Shown here: in pieces, positions 8,711-17,361 of the stretch | How the letters are laid out: each line of letters begins with the position of its first letter | Numbering within the stretch: the stretch's first letter is position 1 | IMG/VR virus record: IMGVR_UViG_3300028767_000073 | Location: 1 to 30,761 of that record | Length of the DNA: 30,761 nucleotides | Direction: 5' to 3' (one strand) | From: a virus | Position numbers and translations under genes: made by a program | The notes under the pieces: model-generated | What the model was told of the DNA's origin: nothing | The model's database searches: none | What the model saw: only the letters and a program-made list of their open reading frames with translations

Positions 8711-9694
8711 TTGGACGACCAAGAACTAAAACGTAGAATCTTAGAGCTGTTGGCTGCTGGTGATCTTACGAAGCAGCAGATTAAAGATACACTATGGGTA
8801 AAAAGTGAAAAGACACTAAATCTCCTCTTGAAAGAGCTACAAGTGGATAATTTGATCTATAGGCACGGTGCTATTTATAGTATTGTCAAACCCATAGAGA
8901 AGCCTAAGAAACCAGTTACTAAAAAGGTAGCACCTAAATCCAGTTTCTTAGTAGAAGATTTACTGCGCATAATGTTTGCTATTGTAGGTGTTGGAACTAC
9001 TATAGTTGGCATCAGAAATACCGCAGTTTTCACAGCAACAGTATTTCCAGTACCATTTTGTTACATCCTTTCTGGTGTTATAGCCCTATTTATGATTGGA
9101 GCTATCCCTGCTGTTATCTATCTTTGGAGTCACAATAGAAAACCATCTGCTTGTGTACTTACTCCTATCTGGCTTGTTGTAACACTGTTTTCTATGTTTT
9201 GTACTATAGAGGGTATGTATTCTATTCAGAAAGACAACTTTATTGAGTCAGAAACCATTTCTAATATTGACACAACTAATGAATCTCTGTATAATGAGTA
9301 TGAAAAACAGGCGAAATCTATTCGGGGTCTTATAGATGCTAAACAGATTACTTTGGACAGGTATAATAAAGAGATTGTAGGTTATGATACACAGGAAGAA
9401 ATACAAGCTGATTTGAAGAACTACAATAGACTTGCTACTAATATATCTGCTGCTGAGAAGTTTATTCAGGGGCAGACGGTAGAACTAACTAAAGTGTCAG
9501 AGAAGAAAACAGCTTTGCTTAGTAAGCAAGAAGGTAAAAAAATTGTAGTCAAGAGCTTCTACGAGCGTATTGAGGCTATGAGCGGGATTAATGCATTTCT
9601 ATTGCAGTTTATAGTGAGTTGCTTTGCAGCAATTATATTGGATATATTGGGGCCAATCTCTATGAGTTTGGCTATGTATTTGAAAAAGGAGTAG
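8711..9694 (+). CDS. Winged-helix / multi-pass membrane / coiled-coil protein
   Basis: 327 residues, with a TTG start six bases after AGGAG. Residues 4-60 look like a winged helix-turn-helix (RILELLAAGDLTKQQIKDTL, then LLLKELQVDNLIYRHGAIYSI). A Lys/Pro-rich linker follows (61-78). Three hydrophobic segments come next (about 85-103, 113-138, 147-168), then a charged helical region (about 190-280), then a last hydrophobic segment (about 294-324). This is an integral membrane protein with a DNA-binding-like cytoplasmic head. It could tether DNA or a replication complex to the membrane, or sense infection. Function not recognised. Confidence 0.7.
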   Translation: MDDQELKRRILELLAAGDLTKQQIKDTLWVKSEKTLNLLLKELQVDNLIYRHGAIYSIVKPIEKPKKPVTKKVAPKSSFLVEDLLRIMFAIVGVGTTIVGIRNTAVFTATVFPVPFCYILSGVIALFMIGAIPAVIYLWSHNRKPSACVLTPIWLVVTLFSMFCTIEGMYSIQKDNFIESETISNIDTTNESLYNEYEKQAKSIRGLIDAKQITLDRYNKEIVGYDTQEEIQADLKNYNRLATNISAAEKFIQGQTVELTKVSEKKTALLSKQEGKKIVVKSFYERIEAMSGINAFLLQFIVSCFAAIILDILGPISMSLAMYLKKE

Positions 9695-9697
9695 GGT

Positions 9698-10000
9698 ATG
9701 GAAGATAATTTTTATTGGATTAATGGGGATGGAGAGGCTGATCATTGCAATGCTTCGTACATGCTGAAATCGGATTTGAGACAGCATGATGAACGTATAC
9801 GAAAGGCGATTGCTGAAAAGGTTCGTAATTATTTGTATGACAAATGGTTCACACTTAATGGTGTAAAAATAATGCTCCCTTTGGGAGAACTAGAGATAAT
9901 TACCAAACTCATTACGGATGAGGATAACAATGTTTCACACAGATCAAGAAGCAATAGACTTCCTTGTAAGCAAGGGATGGACACTCAGTCACCAGTTTAA
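9698..10000 (+). CDS. Hypothetical protein (100 aa) with a C-terminus overlapping the next gene
   Basis: Starts three bases after the membrane-protein gene. The first ~75 residues (MEDNFYWINGDGEADHCN... to ITKLITDEDNN) look like a normal soluble helical protein. The last ~22 residues, from VSHRSRS onward, overlap the start of the next gene and are basic and unlike the rest, so the original stop may have been lost. No family recognised. Confidence 0.55.
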   Translation: MEDNFYWINGDGEADHCNASYMLKSDLRQHDERIRKAIAEKVRNYLYDKWFTLNGVKIMLPLGELEIITKLITDEDNNVSHRSRSNRLPCKQGMDTQSPV

Positions 10001-10103
10001 CTTCTTCTCTCCAAAACCCTATGGGGAATGTTCTCACGAAGAGAAGTTAGCTATACTATATCTTTTGAATGAATATGATTTTTCGTATGGAGGGAAAATA
10101 TGA
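9930..10103 (+). CDS. Small hypothetical protein (57 aa)
   Basis: I choose ATG 9930 (MFHTDQEAIDFLVSKGW), six bases after GAGG, over the in-frame ATG 9918. It overlaps the 3' end of the preceding gene by 71 bases in another frame and runs into the next start (ATGA-type overlap at 10100). Composition is that of a small soluble alpha/beta protein. Not recognised. Confidence 0.6.
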   Translation: MFHTDQEAIDFLVSKGWTLSHQFNFFSPKPYGECSHEEKLAILYLLNEYDFSYGGKI

Positions 10104-10291
10104 AGTATTTCGTTAGTTATTTTATGGCCTTTAAGGATAGAACACAGGCATATGGAAATACAATATATGAGAAGCAACATCCTATGTCCAGTGAAGAAGA
10201 CATTCGTGCTATAGAAGAAGATATCGAGATGAGAAATGAAGCACTCAGTGTGACTCTGATTAACTGGCGACGGCTTGAGGACTCAGAATAA
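10100..10291 (+). CDS. Small hypothetical protein (63 aa)
   Basis: Coupled to both neighbours: its ATG overlaps the previous stop, and its stop shares a base with the ATG of the SbcC-N gene. GGAGGG precedes the start. N-terminus MKYFVSYFMAFKDRTQAYGN, then an acidic helix (EEDIRAIEEDIEMRNEAL). The end LINWRRLED resembles small phage proteins of unknown role. Confidence 0.6.
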   Translation: MKYFVSYFMAFKDRTQAYGNTIYEKQHPMSSEEDIRAIEEDIEMRNEALSVTLINWRRLEDSE

Positions 10292-11382
10292 TGCTTAAAC
10301 AAATCGAGTTATTTAATTATGAATCACACGTACATAGTGTTATAGACCTCTCAGAAGGTATCAATATCTTCTCAGGGGCTTCTGGACAAGGTAAGTCCTC
10401 TATCCGTCGTGCTATCATGTGGTGTATGACTAATAAGCCTAATGGTGACGCTATGGTGTCTTGGAGCGCGTTCGACGCTAAAGGAAACCAGAAAGAGCCT
10501 TGCCGTGTTATTCTCACCTTTGATGATCTTGTTATAGAGCGTCAGAAAGGGCCAAAGCTTAATGGATACATAATAAACAATGATGACAAACATCCGTTAG
10601 AAGCTGTTGGAGTATCCTTACCAGAACAGGTTTCCTCCTTACTTAATGTAAATGATATTAACTATGAAGACCAACTGGGAGCACCATTTCTCCTCTCTGA
10701 GTCCTCTGGTGAAGTTGCTCGATACCTTAACCGCATTGTAAACCTTGATGAGGCAGATAGATTCCAATCCGAGGTAGAAAGCAAACGGCAGAAGTGCAAC
10801 AAAGACATTGCGCTTACAGAAGGGTCGATCAAACGACTGTCTGAGAGCGTAGAGTCTCTTGCATGGCTGGATAAGGCAGACCAGCTCATAGGGCAGATAG
10901 AATCAAAAGATACTATCATAGAAGGTAAGGAAACCACTATAAGCAGTATCAAGCAGTCTATTACTGACTATGAAGAACTGTCTCGAAAAATGGATAGTTA
11001 TCGAGGCGTCCCTGAGAAGGCTACCGCTCTTATCAAGAAGATTGAGTCTTTTGATATAGAGGATAAGATTAAAGAGAAACAGGCGCTTTTTGACAGTTTG
11101 TTGCATTATAAGACCTATCTAAAAGAAGCTGGGCTTGGTGATACTATTGATGAAGCAGAACGGAAGGTACGAAAGATAGGCAAGCTCAATGATATTATTA
11201 CTGATGCTCAAAAAGATCTTGACAGTCTAAAGACTTCTCTGATACAATACAAGAAGCTCAAAGAAGATTGGCTTGCTAATGAGAAAGAACTGGATGTGGC
11301 TGAGGCAGAAATGAAACTGAGTTGTGTATGCCCAGTAACCGGAAAAAGCTGCAATCGATTAGAAACGTCTGTAGCGTTTTAA
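10291..11382 (+). CDS. Rad50/SbcC-type ATPase, N-terminal half (ends at a zinc-hook-like motif)
   Basis: Begins like Rad50, SbcC and T4 gp46: MLKQIELFNYESH, then the Walker A GASGQGKSS (29-37). An N-terminal ATPase lobe follows to about residue 160, including FLLSESSGEVARYLNRIV. Residues ~160-340 are coiled coil. The protein stops nine residues after CVCPVTGKSC (345-354), which has the look of the hook where the two coil arms meet. There is no signature motif, Walker B or second coil here; these are in a separate gene at 13034-13639. It would act with the SbcD-like nuclease encoded at 11617 to process DNA ends. Confidence 0.85.
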   Translation: MLKQIELFNYESHVHSVIDLSEGINIFSGASGQGKSSIRRAIMWCMTNKPNGDAMVSWSAFDAKGNQKEPCRVILTFDDLVIERQKGPKLNGYIINNDDKHPLEAVGVSLPEQVSSLLNVNDINYEDQLGAPFLLSESSGEVARYLNRIVNLDEADRFQSEVESKRQKCNKDIALTEGSIKRLSESVESLAWLDKADQLIGQIESKDTIIEGKETTISSIKQSITDYEELSRKMDSYRGVPEKATALIKKIESFDIEDKIKEKQALFDSLLHYKTYLKEAGLGDTIDEAERKVRKIGKLNDIITDAQKDLDSLKTSLIQYKKLKEDWLANEKELDVAEAEMKLSCVCPVTGKSCNRLETSVAF

Positions 11383-11392
11383 GGAAGGCAAT

Positions 11393-11617
11393 ATGTCTAA
11401 AAGAGTTCAGAAAAACGAGGCACTGAGATTACTTACTACGTGTATGCAGAAATGTATAGCCAGTAAAGAAGCTATTATGATAGTTAATGTAGAATATGGG
11501 TATAAAGATCCTCCTATAGGAGAATATCTTGTATCTATGCCAAAACCTGATGGGCACACCAAAATAACAATAGAGCTGGATTGTTATGATGAAACTTCTG
11601 AGGGGTACTATAAATAA
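11393..11617 (+). CDS. Small hypothetical protein (74 aa)
   Basis: Lies between SbcC-N and SbcD, with AAGGAAGG before the ATG, and its stop overlaps the SbcD ATG (TAATG). Basic N-terminal helix (MSKRVQKNEALRLLTTCMQKC), then beta-rich sequence ending ELDCYDETSEGYYK. Not recognised. Its place inside the nuclease operon suggests, without proof, a link to that complex. Confidence 0.6.
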   Translation: MSKRVQKNEALRLLTTCMQKCIASKEAIMIVNVEYGYKDPPIGEYLVSMPKPDGHTKITIELDCYDETSEGYYK

Positions 11618-12510
11618 TGTCTAAATTTATCCTATCGTCGGATCAGCATATGCGCGGGGATCGTCCTATATGCAGGACAGAAACAGAAGAAGAATGGCTT
11701 GAGTTTCAAGCAACTAGACTCAATGAAGTTGTCTCCATAGCTAATGAACATAAGGCAGAACTTATTCTTGGTGGAGATATGTTCGACATTCCAAACTGTC
11801 CTTCTTATGTGGTGGCTACTGTCATAAATGCTCTTCTTAGTATGAAGAAGCCTTGTCATATTCTAGCAGGCAATCACGAGTTACCTTATAGGCGTTTTGC
11901 TAACGTAGGAACTTCCAGTATAGGTATTCTCAAGGCTATAGCAGGGGATAATACAGGGATACTTAGATTCTACACACCTAAAGAGCAGCTTATAGAAGGG
12001 CGTTTTCAGCACTCCCATCAAGCCATACCCAACATCTCCGTCGTACATACCTTGTCATTTCCAACAAGCGATGATATTCCGTTTAACGCTAAGGCAACTA
12101 CAGCAGAAGAGCTTTGCAAAGAGTATCCGACTAAATATGTTCTAGTTGGGGATCTTCATGAAACTTATCATGTTCAGATAGGCGAACAGCATGTATTTTC
12201 ATCTGGCGCTCTCACACAGCAAACAGTCAAGGAACGAGACGCTAATCCCGGTGTCTGGTACATAGATACTGACAAAGAGGAATTCGAGTTTATTGAAGTG
12301 TACCACGATGCCTCTAAGATATCTGATGAGCATCTCCTCCGTAAACGTGAGCGTGTAGCTGAGATAGAGTCTGTACTGGAAGCAATGAAGTCAGGGAAAA
12401 CTGACGTTTCTCTTGACTATATTAAGAATCTCTATTACTATGTAGAGCATAACAAAGTCTCTGAAGGGGCTATCGAGATCATAGACGAAATAAAGGAAGG
12501 TATAGAGTGA
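11617..12510 (+). CDS. SbcD/Mre11/gp47-type nuclease
   Basis: Calcineurin-like metallophosphoesterase of the Mre11 class, the nuclease partner of Rad50/SbcC. Metal-binding motifs are in order: DQH (9-11), GGDMFD (52-57), GNHE (85-88), VVHTLSF with H144, and GDLHETYHV (178-186) with H181. The C-terminal ~60 residues are charged helices (LLRKRERVAEIESVLEAMK) suited to contacting the ATPase coil base. At 297 residues it is close to gp47-type proteins. It is encoded between the two halves of the ATPase. By eye about 15 of its 26 isoleucines use ATA. Confidence 0.9.
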   Translation: MSKFILSSDQHMRGDRPICRTETEEEWLEFQATRLNEVVSIANEHKAELILGGDMFDIPNCPSYVVATVINALLSMKKPCHILAGNHELPYRRFANVGTSSIGILKAIAGDNTGILRFYTPKEQLIEGRFQHSHQAIPNISVVHTLSFPTSDDIPFNAKATTAEELCKEYPTKYVLVGDLHETYHVQIGEQHVFSSGALTQQTVKERDANPGVWYIDTDKEEFEFIEVYHDASKISDEHLLRKRERVAEIESVLEAMKSGKTDVSLDYIKNLYYYVEHNKVSEGAIEIIDEIKEGIE

Positions 12511-12665
12511 ATGAATTTGGCAAGTTGTTTCGGTATTTTTCAGATGCATCTTGCTCAAATAATGATAGGCTGTTGTTCAATGCTGTTAGTGCGCTAATTA
12601 CTATTGCAGAAAGACAACAGGAAGAGATTGAAGCACTCAAAAAGGAGATAGGAAATGAAAATTGA
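12507..12665 (+). CDS. Small hypothetical protein (52 aa), GTG start
   Basis: This short ORF was read from the sequence. GTG at 12507 overlaps the SbcD stop (GTGA), with AGGAAGG upstream. The product (MNEFGKLFRYFSDASCSNND...) ends in a charged helix (AERQQEEIEALKKEIGNEN), probably coiled coil. An ATG at 12511 in another frame gives only 28 Cys-rich residues and is less likely. Overlaps the next gene by 11 bases. Confidence 0.55.
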   Translation: MNEFGKLFRYFSDASCSNNDRLLFNAVSALITIAERQQEEIEALKKEIGNEN

Positions 12666-12807
12666 TTGGGCTAAACTGGACAAAGAAATCATGTATCTTA
12701 TGGGAACTTGCATCGCTGTGTGTATCGGGCTTGCACTTGTATGTGGTGCCGGATGGCTTCTGGTGTTTGCTGGGAAGGCATTCCTGACTATTCTGGGGGT
12801 TATGTAA
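12655..12807 (+). CDS. Small single-pass membrane protein (50 aa)
   Basis: Read from the sequence. ATG 12655 follows AGGAGATAGG. After MKIDWAKLDKE comes a hydrophobic stretch of about 35 residues rich in G, V, L and C. One long or two short membrane segments are possible. The stop shares a base with the next ATG (TAATG). A membrane protein inside the recombination-nuclease operon is unexpected; function not recognised. Confidence 0.6.
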   Translation: MKIDWAKLDKEIMYLMGTCIAVCIGLALVCGAGWLLVFAGKAFLTILGVM

Positions 12808-13049
12808 TGGACACAAAGACGTTTGAATCAATTAAGACTAAGGTAGACACCCTCAAGCAGAGACGGGCTAAAGCTGAAGGTGCTATTGAATCCATTGAAG
12901 GTGATTGGCTCAAGAATTACAAGACTAAAAACATCAAGGAACTTGAGGCTAAACTGGCTGAAATGGAAGAAGACGTGGAGGCCGATACTGCAGATAGGGA
13001 CAAGGTATTTGAAGAGCTTAAAGGACTCCACACATGGCAGTTCGTATAG
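12807..13049 (+). CDS. Coiled-coil protein (80 aa) beside the split Rad50
   Basis: ATG 12807 overlaps the preceding stop. Almost the whole protein has heptad-like charge and hydrophobic spacing (FESIKTKVDTLKQRRAKAEG, then ELEAKLAEMEEDVEADTADR), ending GLHTWQFV. It overlaps the C-terminal ATPase gene by 16 bases. The N-half of the ATPase has ~180 residues of coil, but the C-half has only ~60. This protein could supply part of the missing returning coil, or be a remnant of a once-continuous gene. Confidence 0.65.
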   Translation: MDTKTFESIKTKVDTLKQRRAKAEGAIESIEGDWLKNYKTKNIKELEAKLAEMEEDVEADTADRDKVFEELKGLHTWQFV

Positions 13050-13639
13050 CTCAGTATAAAGACTTCACCACAAGGAAGCTTGGAGAGCGTTCTCTGCTCC
13101 AGAAGCAACTTGCAGAAGCACAAGAGCATCATATTTATCTCAAGGCACGAGCTTTGTCTATCATAGAAGCCCAGACTATTATCCAGAAGATAGCGGTAGA
13201 GACACAGACACAGCTACGCTTCAAGATAGAGGATATAGTCAACAAGATCCTTGAGACCACCTTCCCAGAATATTCTTTTGAACTAGAGTATGAAGTTAAG
13301 CGTGGTAAGAGTGAGGCAAACCTTAAATTCTACAAGGGAACTCATCAGGTAGATCTCATGGACGGATGCGGTGGGGGAAATGTAGATTGTGCTTGCATAG
13401 CTTTAAGACTAGCAATATGGAGTTTATCAGATACACGCTCATTACTTATACTAGATGAAGCTACAAAACACCTAAGTGCAGATGATACACCTAGATTTGC
13501 TTATATATTCTCCGCTATAGTCAATGAACTTGGGATACAGGTTATAATGCCAACCCACTCTGATGCAATCAGGGAAGTTGCTGATACCTGTTATGATGTG
13601 TGGCTTAAAGGACAAGTATCACAGGTACAGAAACAATGA
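13034..13639 (+). CDS. Rad50/SbcC-type ATPase, C-terminal half
   Basis: 201 residues carrying the parts missing from the protein at 10291. A short helical arm (1-60) leads into the C-terminal lobe: a glycine-rich signature-like stretch MDGCGGGNVD (109-118) in place of the usual LSGGE, Walker B LLILDE (137-142), D-loop-like ATKHLS, and the H-loop MPTHSD (H175). There is no Walker A. Two ATP sites would need the N-half protein in trans. The start ATG lies inside the coiled-coil gene, and the stop overlaps the next start. Confidence 0.85.
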   Translation: MAVRIAQYKDFTTRKLGERSLLQKQLAEAQEHHIYLKARALSIIEAQTIIQKIAVETQTQLRFKIEDIVNKILETTFPEYSFELEYEVKRGKSEANLKFYKGTHQVDLMDGCGGGNVDCACIALRLAIWSLSDTRSLLILDEATKHLSADDTPRFAYIFSAIVNELGIQVIMPTHSDAIREVADTCYDVWLKGQVSQVQKQ

Positions 13640-16071: not shown

Positions 16072-17304
16072 TCATACAAGGGAGGTTATTGTTACCTTGG
16101 TATTAGGTGAAGCACTGCGGACATTATATCTCTCTAACTCGGGTATAATATGATAGCCTTCATATCCATCAGTGTTCTGAAGGTCTATCTTGATGCCATC
16201 ATACCCAAGGTCATCATTGATAATATATATGTTTTGACTAGCTCTACTGGCGCACCCCAAATCATTAGTACTGTAGGAATTACCTCCGCAGAGAGATGCA
16301 GAACGGCTCACTATATCTCCTACTGCTGCACTATGAATATGTCCACAGAGAGCCATGTGTATAGGAATGCCTCGTAGAGTATAGTTCTGGACTATCTTAG
16401 GAAGGGATCTATCGGGGGAATTCTTGAAGAATGTACCGTGAGTCAGTAGAACATTGAAACCGTTAGGGAGTTTTACTACATCGTTTACATGATTATGTAG
16501 TTCTGGAAATGAAACGGGCCTACCAGTGAACAGCATCTTTAGTTGTTCATATATCATATAGTCCCAGTTATTTGATGCAAGTATATCGGATGTGTCAAAA
16601 TCGTTCTCCCCCAACCGAGTCTCATTTCCGACAACACCAGCAAACGCTACGGAGAAGTCTTTAGATAAATCAATAATAGCTTGCTGAATAAGGTATGTGG
16701 TAAGAAGGGCTGCACGCACTTGTGAGGTTGCAGACGCCAGTTTCTCGGATAAGCGGCGGTCACTGTTTATCCAGTCCCCTGTTCCTGCTACAAGAATATG
16801 CGTTATGCCCTGCGCCTTAAATACACACTTAGCCTTATCCACAAACTTTTGCAATCGCTTTGCAAATACTAGGAAATCAAAACTATTACCATTAGACTCG
16901 GTTGGTTCTATGATTTCATTGCAGTGTATGTCGCTCAGCTGAAGAATTCCCCATTTAGGTTTGTCTTCAGGAATTCTAACAATGGGATCTAGTTTGAAAT
17001 CCGCTAGTGGACAAGACTTTAGTAGTGTTGTATACTCTCTATAGACTTCATCAAGAGAATTATAGAGCCTATATGACTCTCGGTTCTCTTTCTTAATGAC
17101 TGTGTTAATATCAGTTAGACGTTGCTTCTGTGCAGAGAGTTTGACCAAGTCGTCAGTAACTTCTTCTTCGGTTTCCTCATAAGAGGCCACCGCAAGGTAT
17201 TCCTTCAGCTTACTCTCTGATATATGAAAGTGCTGACATGCTTCTTTCTTACCATATTTGCTCACATAATCGGCTTTTATAAGGGCATTTTCACGTTTAA
17301 TCAA
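16072..17304 (-). CDS. HTH-containing metallophosphoesterase
   Basis: 410 residues from a TTG start at 17304, placed by AGGAG five bases upstream; the frame is open 19 codons further, but that covers the terminator/promoter element. The N-terminal ~45 residues (ADYVSKYGKKEACQHFHISE) resemble a helix-turn-helix, followed by a helical linker. Calcineurin-type motifs are SDIH (D125, H127), GTGDW (D177), GNE (N227), THGTF (H289) and GHIH (H322, H324), giving a two-metal site. Its substrate (DNA, RNA, nucleotide or protein phosphate) is unknown. Position just before the lysis genes, with its own promoter, is notable. It is distinct from the SbcD-like protein at 11617. Confidence 0.8.
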   Translation of the reverse strand: MIKRENALIKADYVSKYGKKEACQHFHISESKLKEYLAVASYEETEEEVTDDLVKLSAQKQRLTDINTVIKKENRESYRLYNSLDEVYREYTTLLKSCPLADFKLDPIVRIPEDKPKWGILQLSDIHCNEIIEPTESNGNSFDFLVFAKRLQKFVDKAKCVFKAQGITHILVAGTGDWINSDRRLSEKLASATSQVRAALLTTYLIQQAIIDLSKDFSVAFAGVVGNETRLGENDFDTSDILASNNWDYMIYEQLKMLFTGRPVSFPELHNHVNDVVKLPNGFNVLLTHGTFFKNSPDRSLPKIVQNYTLRGIPIHMALCGHIHSAAVGDIVSRSASLCGGNSYSTNDLGCASRASQNIYIINDDLGYDGIKIDLQNTDGYEGYHIIPELERYNVRSASPNTKVTITSLV

Positions 17305-17320
17305 GGTATCTCCTATTGAG

Positions 17321-17361
17321 TAAATAATAAAAAACCTACCATATTTCGGTAGGTTTGTCAA
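17321..17361 (-). promoter_or_regulatory. Combined terminator-promoter element, copy 1
   Basis: On the minus strand TTGACA (17361-17356) and TAGGTT (17338-17333) are 17 bp apart. A perfect 9-bp inverted repeat (AAACCTACC / GGTAGGTTT, 7-base loop, 17332-17356) occupies that interval, followed by TTTTTTATTATTTA. It reads both as an intrinsic terminator for the lipase-like gene and as a promoter for the phosphoesterase. A near-identical copy lies at 18560-18599. Confidence 0.7.

Follow-up and report, generated by a model that had tools for sequence, protein, structure and literature searches.

The best profile match for both of the proteins treated here, and one of the best in fold, is archaeal Rad50 (P. 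furiosus 1f2t/1ii8/9a9j, and 3aux), which in nature is one chain with its hook in the middle, whereas the split form has its hook at the end of a chain and xGGGxxD as its signature. The head of Pyrococcus Rad50 was indeed solved as two chains, N and C, by structural biologists' design, and since in these structures it is made from separate chains they offer a precedent for a two-chain head, a division made there by design and here by nature. T4 gp46/gp47 and the fused phage SbcC (phrog_77) likewise constitute a phage-encoded SbcC/SbcD pair, but T4 gp46 is one chain and falls outside the split clade; bacterial SbcC (of Paenibacillus, Sutcliffiella and others that carry split genes) has the same kind of head, with CPxC mid-chain, but its chains, of about 1,000 aa, are unbroken and form a clade of their own. 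In an overview of jumbo phages (PMC7824862), SbcC is regarded as one ABC ATPase, and the literature searched, which comprised open-licence papers only, yielded no description of a split Rad50/SbcC. Matching protein families do exist, phrog_16465 and phrog_1499 for the N-half and phrog_15167 for the C-half, but they are catalogued as if unrelated, under the labels "exonuclease", "unknown function" and "ATPase", and are not recognised as two parts of one protein.

The viral sequence analysed here, 30,761 nucleotides in length (the window), very probably encodes a phage DNA-end nuclease of the Mre11-Rad50 (SbcCD) type, with a permanent break in the Rad50 chain just past the zinc hook. As the same cut is kept in more than 100 related phage sequences, the split Rad50/SbcC is a real, and apparently undescribed, form of this universal repair machine.

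Two predicted half-heads and a putative nuclease

All the genes of the locus lie on the + strand, and ORF positions, motifs and family profiles agree with the reading frames placed in the earlier note. The N-half (10291–11382, 363 aa) comprises the N-lobe of an ABC head and one arm, matches AAA_23 (9e-9), phrog_16465 (9e-24) and SbcC/exonuclease PHROGs, and carries the Walker A motif GASGQGKS at residues 29–36 (10375–10398), of which G29, G34 and K35 are invariant across 58 relatives. Its C-terminal sequence is LSCVCPVTGKSCNRLETSVAF, and it stops nine residues past the last cysteine of CVCPVTGKSC (residues 345–354; 11323–11352), the motif just after which the earlier note had placed its end. 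It is followed by an SbcD-like gene, a 52-aa ORF, a 50-aa ORF predicted to span the membrane (12655–12807), the 80-aa helical hairpin, or coil, protein (12807–13049, with its ATG at 12807) and the C-half (13034–13639, 201 aa), the first 16 bases of which lie within the coil gene. The small membrane-spanning ORF is also kept in a sister phage (L013, 8648–8800). Between the N-half and SbcD there is a 74-aa ORF (11393–11617) that found no match in family searches and is probably foreign to the complex; in the related loci L011 and L013 its position is taken by another gene or an HNH gene.

The C-half, comprising the base of the return arm and the C-lobe of the head, matches phrog_15167 ("ATPase", 7e-26) and the C-terminal end of phrog_77 SbcC. 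Within GCGGGNVD, LLILDE and THS it holds, respectively, a signature stretch (CGGGNVD, residues 112–118; 13367–13387), Walker B (LLILDE, residues 137–142; 13442–13459) and an H-loop (TH, residues 174–175; 13553–13558), and its 201-aa translation contains no Walker A, all as first read. A complete set of ABC/SMC-type head motifs, that is, Walker A, signature, Walker B and H-loop, is thus found only when both halves are taken together. The earlier note had also thought the signature, MDGCGGGNVD, unusual, and it does differ from the canonical SGG(E/Q), but it is no peculiarity of this phage: in the columns of 129 C-halves, G at 113 is present in all, G at 115 in 128 and D at 118 in 125, which gives the family pattern xGGGxxD, while the first position is Ser in 55, Cys in the window, and R, C or G are the frequent replacements. 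Being family-wide, it is not a mark of lost function in this phage. The Asp-Glu of Walker B is present in 129/129, and the H-loop position is H in 116 and D in 12, the change from His to Asp being found with Walker B kept in, for example, the C-halves of L024, L027, L029 and L033.

AlphaFold monomer models give each half the fold of one side of a Rad50 head. The N-half model (pLDDT 85, pTM 0.43) finds its top matches in chain A of P. furiosus Rad50 (9a9j/1f2u/1ii8), with Z 12.2 over 170 aligned residues and rmsd 7.7 against 9a9j_A, and Z 12.8 over 126 residues and rmsd 2.9 against 1f2u_C; the C-half model (pLDDT 94, pTM 0.76) finds its best in chain B (3qkr/1ii8/1f2t/9a9j), with Z 14.6, 163 residues and rmsd 3.6 against 9a9j_B, and Z 13.7, 141 residues and rmsd 2.5 against 1f2u_B. 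SMC heads score about equally for the N-half, so that its fold alone does not single out Rad50, and it is the hook, the linkage to SbcD and the sequence profiles that do so.

The gene which the earlier note had placed between the halves as SbcD-like (11617–12510, 297 aa) does indeed encode an SbcD/Mre11-like nuclease, matching Metallophos (8e-6) and phrog_100 (8e-12) and showing the metal-binding motifs DQH, GGDMFD, GNHE and GDLH of a calcineurin-like nuclease domain. Around the locus, the window carries on the same strand genes for nucleotide metabolism, a UvsX-like recombinase, HNH genes and an SSB-like gene, from which the natural reading is a role in phage recombination and DNA-end processing. 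PADLOC does give matches to LmuB, AriA and mad3, as would suit an ATPase-nuclease module of defence or anti-defence, Lamassu-like or PARIS-like, in place of a repair complex; these matches, however, are weak, reflect the general ABC head and are surpassed by the PHROG matches, and with SbcD as partner and such neighbours a defence module seems very improbable. A second exonuclease-type gene is found in the window on the − strand (16075–17361; phrog_284, 5e-49).

The split among related phages

Scans of viral contigs and one scan of bacterial genomes, followed by profile searches of all ORFs, yielded 132 distinct matches to the C-half and, dereplicated by C-half sequence, 119 loci at which the two halves are separate genes, a total that includes near relatives (e.g., L043–L063) as entries of their own; alignments that took in the C-halves of every group were too diverse to serve for scanning the collection. 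In these 119 sets the two head lobes and the arms are borne not by one polypeptide but by two head chains and a small coil protein, which removes the possibility that the window is the isolated oddity of one phage. SbcD lies near 118 of them, in the orders N-SbcD-C (75), N-C-SbcD (35) and SbcD-N-C (2), or fused to the N-half (6), and in one set N-C was seen without it. The six fusions (L067, L180, L181, L188, L191 and L192) are in frame, as one ORF of 707–805 aa. The same set occurs in Bacillus phage vB_BboS-125 (L001) and Microcystis phage Mvi-JY20 (L004); in the former (NC_048735.1) no gene is annotated in the stretch that encodes SbcD (9238–10218). Megablast with the first 12 kb of the window matched no named phage.

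Close IMG/VR relatives, whose N-halves are 75–86% and C-halves 89% identical to those of the window, still have both halves separate, and the dN/dS values against them (0.18–0.20 for the N-half, 0.07 for the coil protein, 0.12–0.13 for the C-half and 0.05–0.18 for SbcD) indicate that all four proteins are maintained by purifying selection; decay of one half was not seen in the window's lineage. The earlier note would have yielded to a frameshift joining the two frames, or to relatives with one half absent or decayed. No joining frameshift is possible, with 1.65 kb and SbcD between the halves, and both are kept in the 119 sets almost without exception. A possible exception is L057 / L030, an 82.5-kb contig on which an N-half with the hook CCPFC is accompanied by no detectable C-half and by only an SbcD-like match below threshold; it may be a fragment. 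The apparent in-frame TGA of one N-half turned out to be its normal stop.

It could still be imagined that frameshifting, RNA splicing or protein splicing joins the halves, or that assembly error has parted them, so that an ordinary one-chain SbcC would result, seeing that introns and inteins occur in phages and that an HNH gene lies between the N-half and SbcD in L013. An error of frame or assembly is contradicted by the spacing, with SbcD in the gap, by the split in relatives and by purifying selection. As for joining, a complete SbcD gene often stands between the halves, the gene order varies, the residues at the boundaries are those of a hook tail and a coil start, and no joined protein appears among close relatives in more than 100 contigs; furthermore, in the records of Microbacterium phage Magritte and Tunturiibacter phage Tunturi_5 the halves are, by the coordinates of the records, about 93 and 107 kb apart, which excludes joining in cis there. 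We regard this explanation as extremely unlikely. The models did pick up three joined N-C proteins (L073, L077 and L080), but these are of SbcC type, only distantly related, and fall outside the split clade.

In a tree of both lobes, the 53 sampled split sequences form one clade (bootstrap 100; FastTree 0.993) from which T4 gp46, four bacterial SbcC, fused phage SbcC and SMC are excluded, and within which the six SbcD fusions group together (92). The split form would appear to be a single old phage lineage; as the sampling began from split queries, the clade may contain a fused member that it missed. Bacterial genomes with split genes also encode a full-length SbcC, and the C-half is rare among bacteria, with 2 strong matches from the 199 genomes searched in one family, in keeping with prophages.

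The distances of N-half, C-half and SbcD correlate (r 0.86–0.91), and this co-inheritance bears on whether the halves work together. They might instead have independent roles, the N-half tethering DNA through paired hooks together with SbcD and the C-half serving as a regulator, with no shared ATPase head, since their association is a matter of inference, replacements of the signature Ser are frequent, Asp takes the place of the H-loop His in 12/129 and the N-half of Magritte has no hook. Nevertheless, conserved Walker A in one half and conserved Walker B in the other would be useless apart, and separate chains do make one head in the Rad50 structures 1f2t/1ii8/9a9j, so that separate action, while less remote than joining, remains improbable beside an ATPase head which, to judge from sequences and models, would be assembled in trans from N-half and C-half.

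Among the sister phages, the window and L011 (7359–8252) have the same SbcD allele, whereas in L010 (7859–8740) and L013 (7770–8651) the first ~235 residues are only 20–57% identical per 30-residue block, despite which the last ~60 are 89–100% identical. These phages have exchanged the nuclease domain and kept the C-terminal tail, which is what docking of the tail on the N-half arm would lead one to expect. Next to the exchanged allele of L013 there is an HNH-like gene.

The hook and the arm

In 109 of the 115 complete N-halves a CxxC lies 3–28 residues (median 10) before the end, a placement found in only 33/467 control ORFs of similar size. All the remaining six, with the window's lineage among them, have CX6C at the same place, against 6/467 controls. 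The hook-like motif of the earlier note therefore does stand at the end of the N-half, but as a CX6C variant in this lineage rather than as CxxC: in the window it is C347-P-V-T-G-K-S-C354, with C345 in addition, and C347 is invariant across 58 N-halves. CX6C is common to the window and three other lineages, the variants being CPVTGMSC (L007, L008), CYITGKPC (L009), CPIFSVPC (L099), CPVTGEYC (L108) and CPFYNVIC (L160); its presence in at least three places on the trees suggests repeated origins of the variant hook. No CxxC was found in the first 70 residues of the C-halves examined. At family level, then, there is the CxxC at the coil apex that characterises a zinc hook, the hook being a predicted one and the window itself having CX6C. 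The N-half of Magritte (L019, 2839–3891), far from its C-half, lacks a hook entirely.

The 80-residue coiled-coil gene reported directly 5' of the C-half proves to be a conserved member of the set. Its family (77–100 aa) has two predicted helices around a short turn and is usually encoded directly upstream of the C-half, and ORFs fitting the hairpin model are present at 113 of the 119 split sets, a count that is partly circular, as the model was seeded with 62 sequences from the same loci and coil profiles match easily by composition. Both the operon position and weak collinear matches to profiles of one-chain Rad50 suggest that the hairpin is a detached piece of the return arm, of which it probably supplies a part: in the Rad50_Sulf profile the hairpin matches 640–695 and the C-half 725–868, and in ASRP the N-half matches 10–312 and the hairpin 333–392, collinear in both cases but with E about 0.008. 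Homology of the hairpin to a defined stretch of one-chain Rad50 is accordingly no more than suggestive, and a profile search of the PDB gave no convincing match for it.

The lengths of the arms count against the simple version of this idea. From Walker A to hook there are 262–481 aa, whereas hairpin and C-half coil make a return arm of only about 125 aa; moreover, the length of the N-arm differs by more than 200 residues from group to group, whereas that of hairpin and C-half coil together remains near 125 and is no greater in the long-armed group. Several copies of the hairpin, or an N-arm partly pairing with itself, are candidate readings that would resolve the mismatch.

The proposed complex and its meaning

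In the complex that we propose, the N-half would supply Walker A, the ascending arm and the hook, the latter as a free C-terminus that would pair two complexes, presumably by zinc; the C-half, beginning at the base of the returning arm, would supply signature, Walker B and H-loop; and the two chains would co-fold to form a single ABC head. A pair of these heads would close upon ATP and take hold of DNA, the end of which SbcD would cut. The hairpin protein would most likely give part of the missing return arm. In its fullest form this would be a Rad50 of three chains, interrupted both at the hook and within the return arm, and the arm could be opened at the apex, because the hook would be a free chain end and the return arm a detachable subunit. 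We put this forward tentatively, as a possibility somewhat short of an even chance; if it were true, the apex could act as a DNA gate, and the arm would signal without a continuous chain through the hook.

For those who annotate phage genomes, several families labelled "exonuclease", "ATPase" and "unknown" would be parts of one complex. In a wider sense, evolution has kept a version of Rad50 without a peptide link across the hook, and with it a natural experiment on whether tethering, zipping, nuclease activation and control by ATP depend on an arm without a break.
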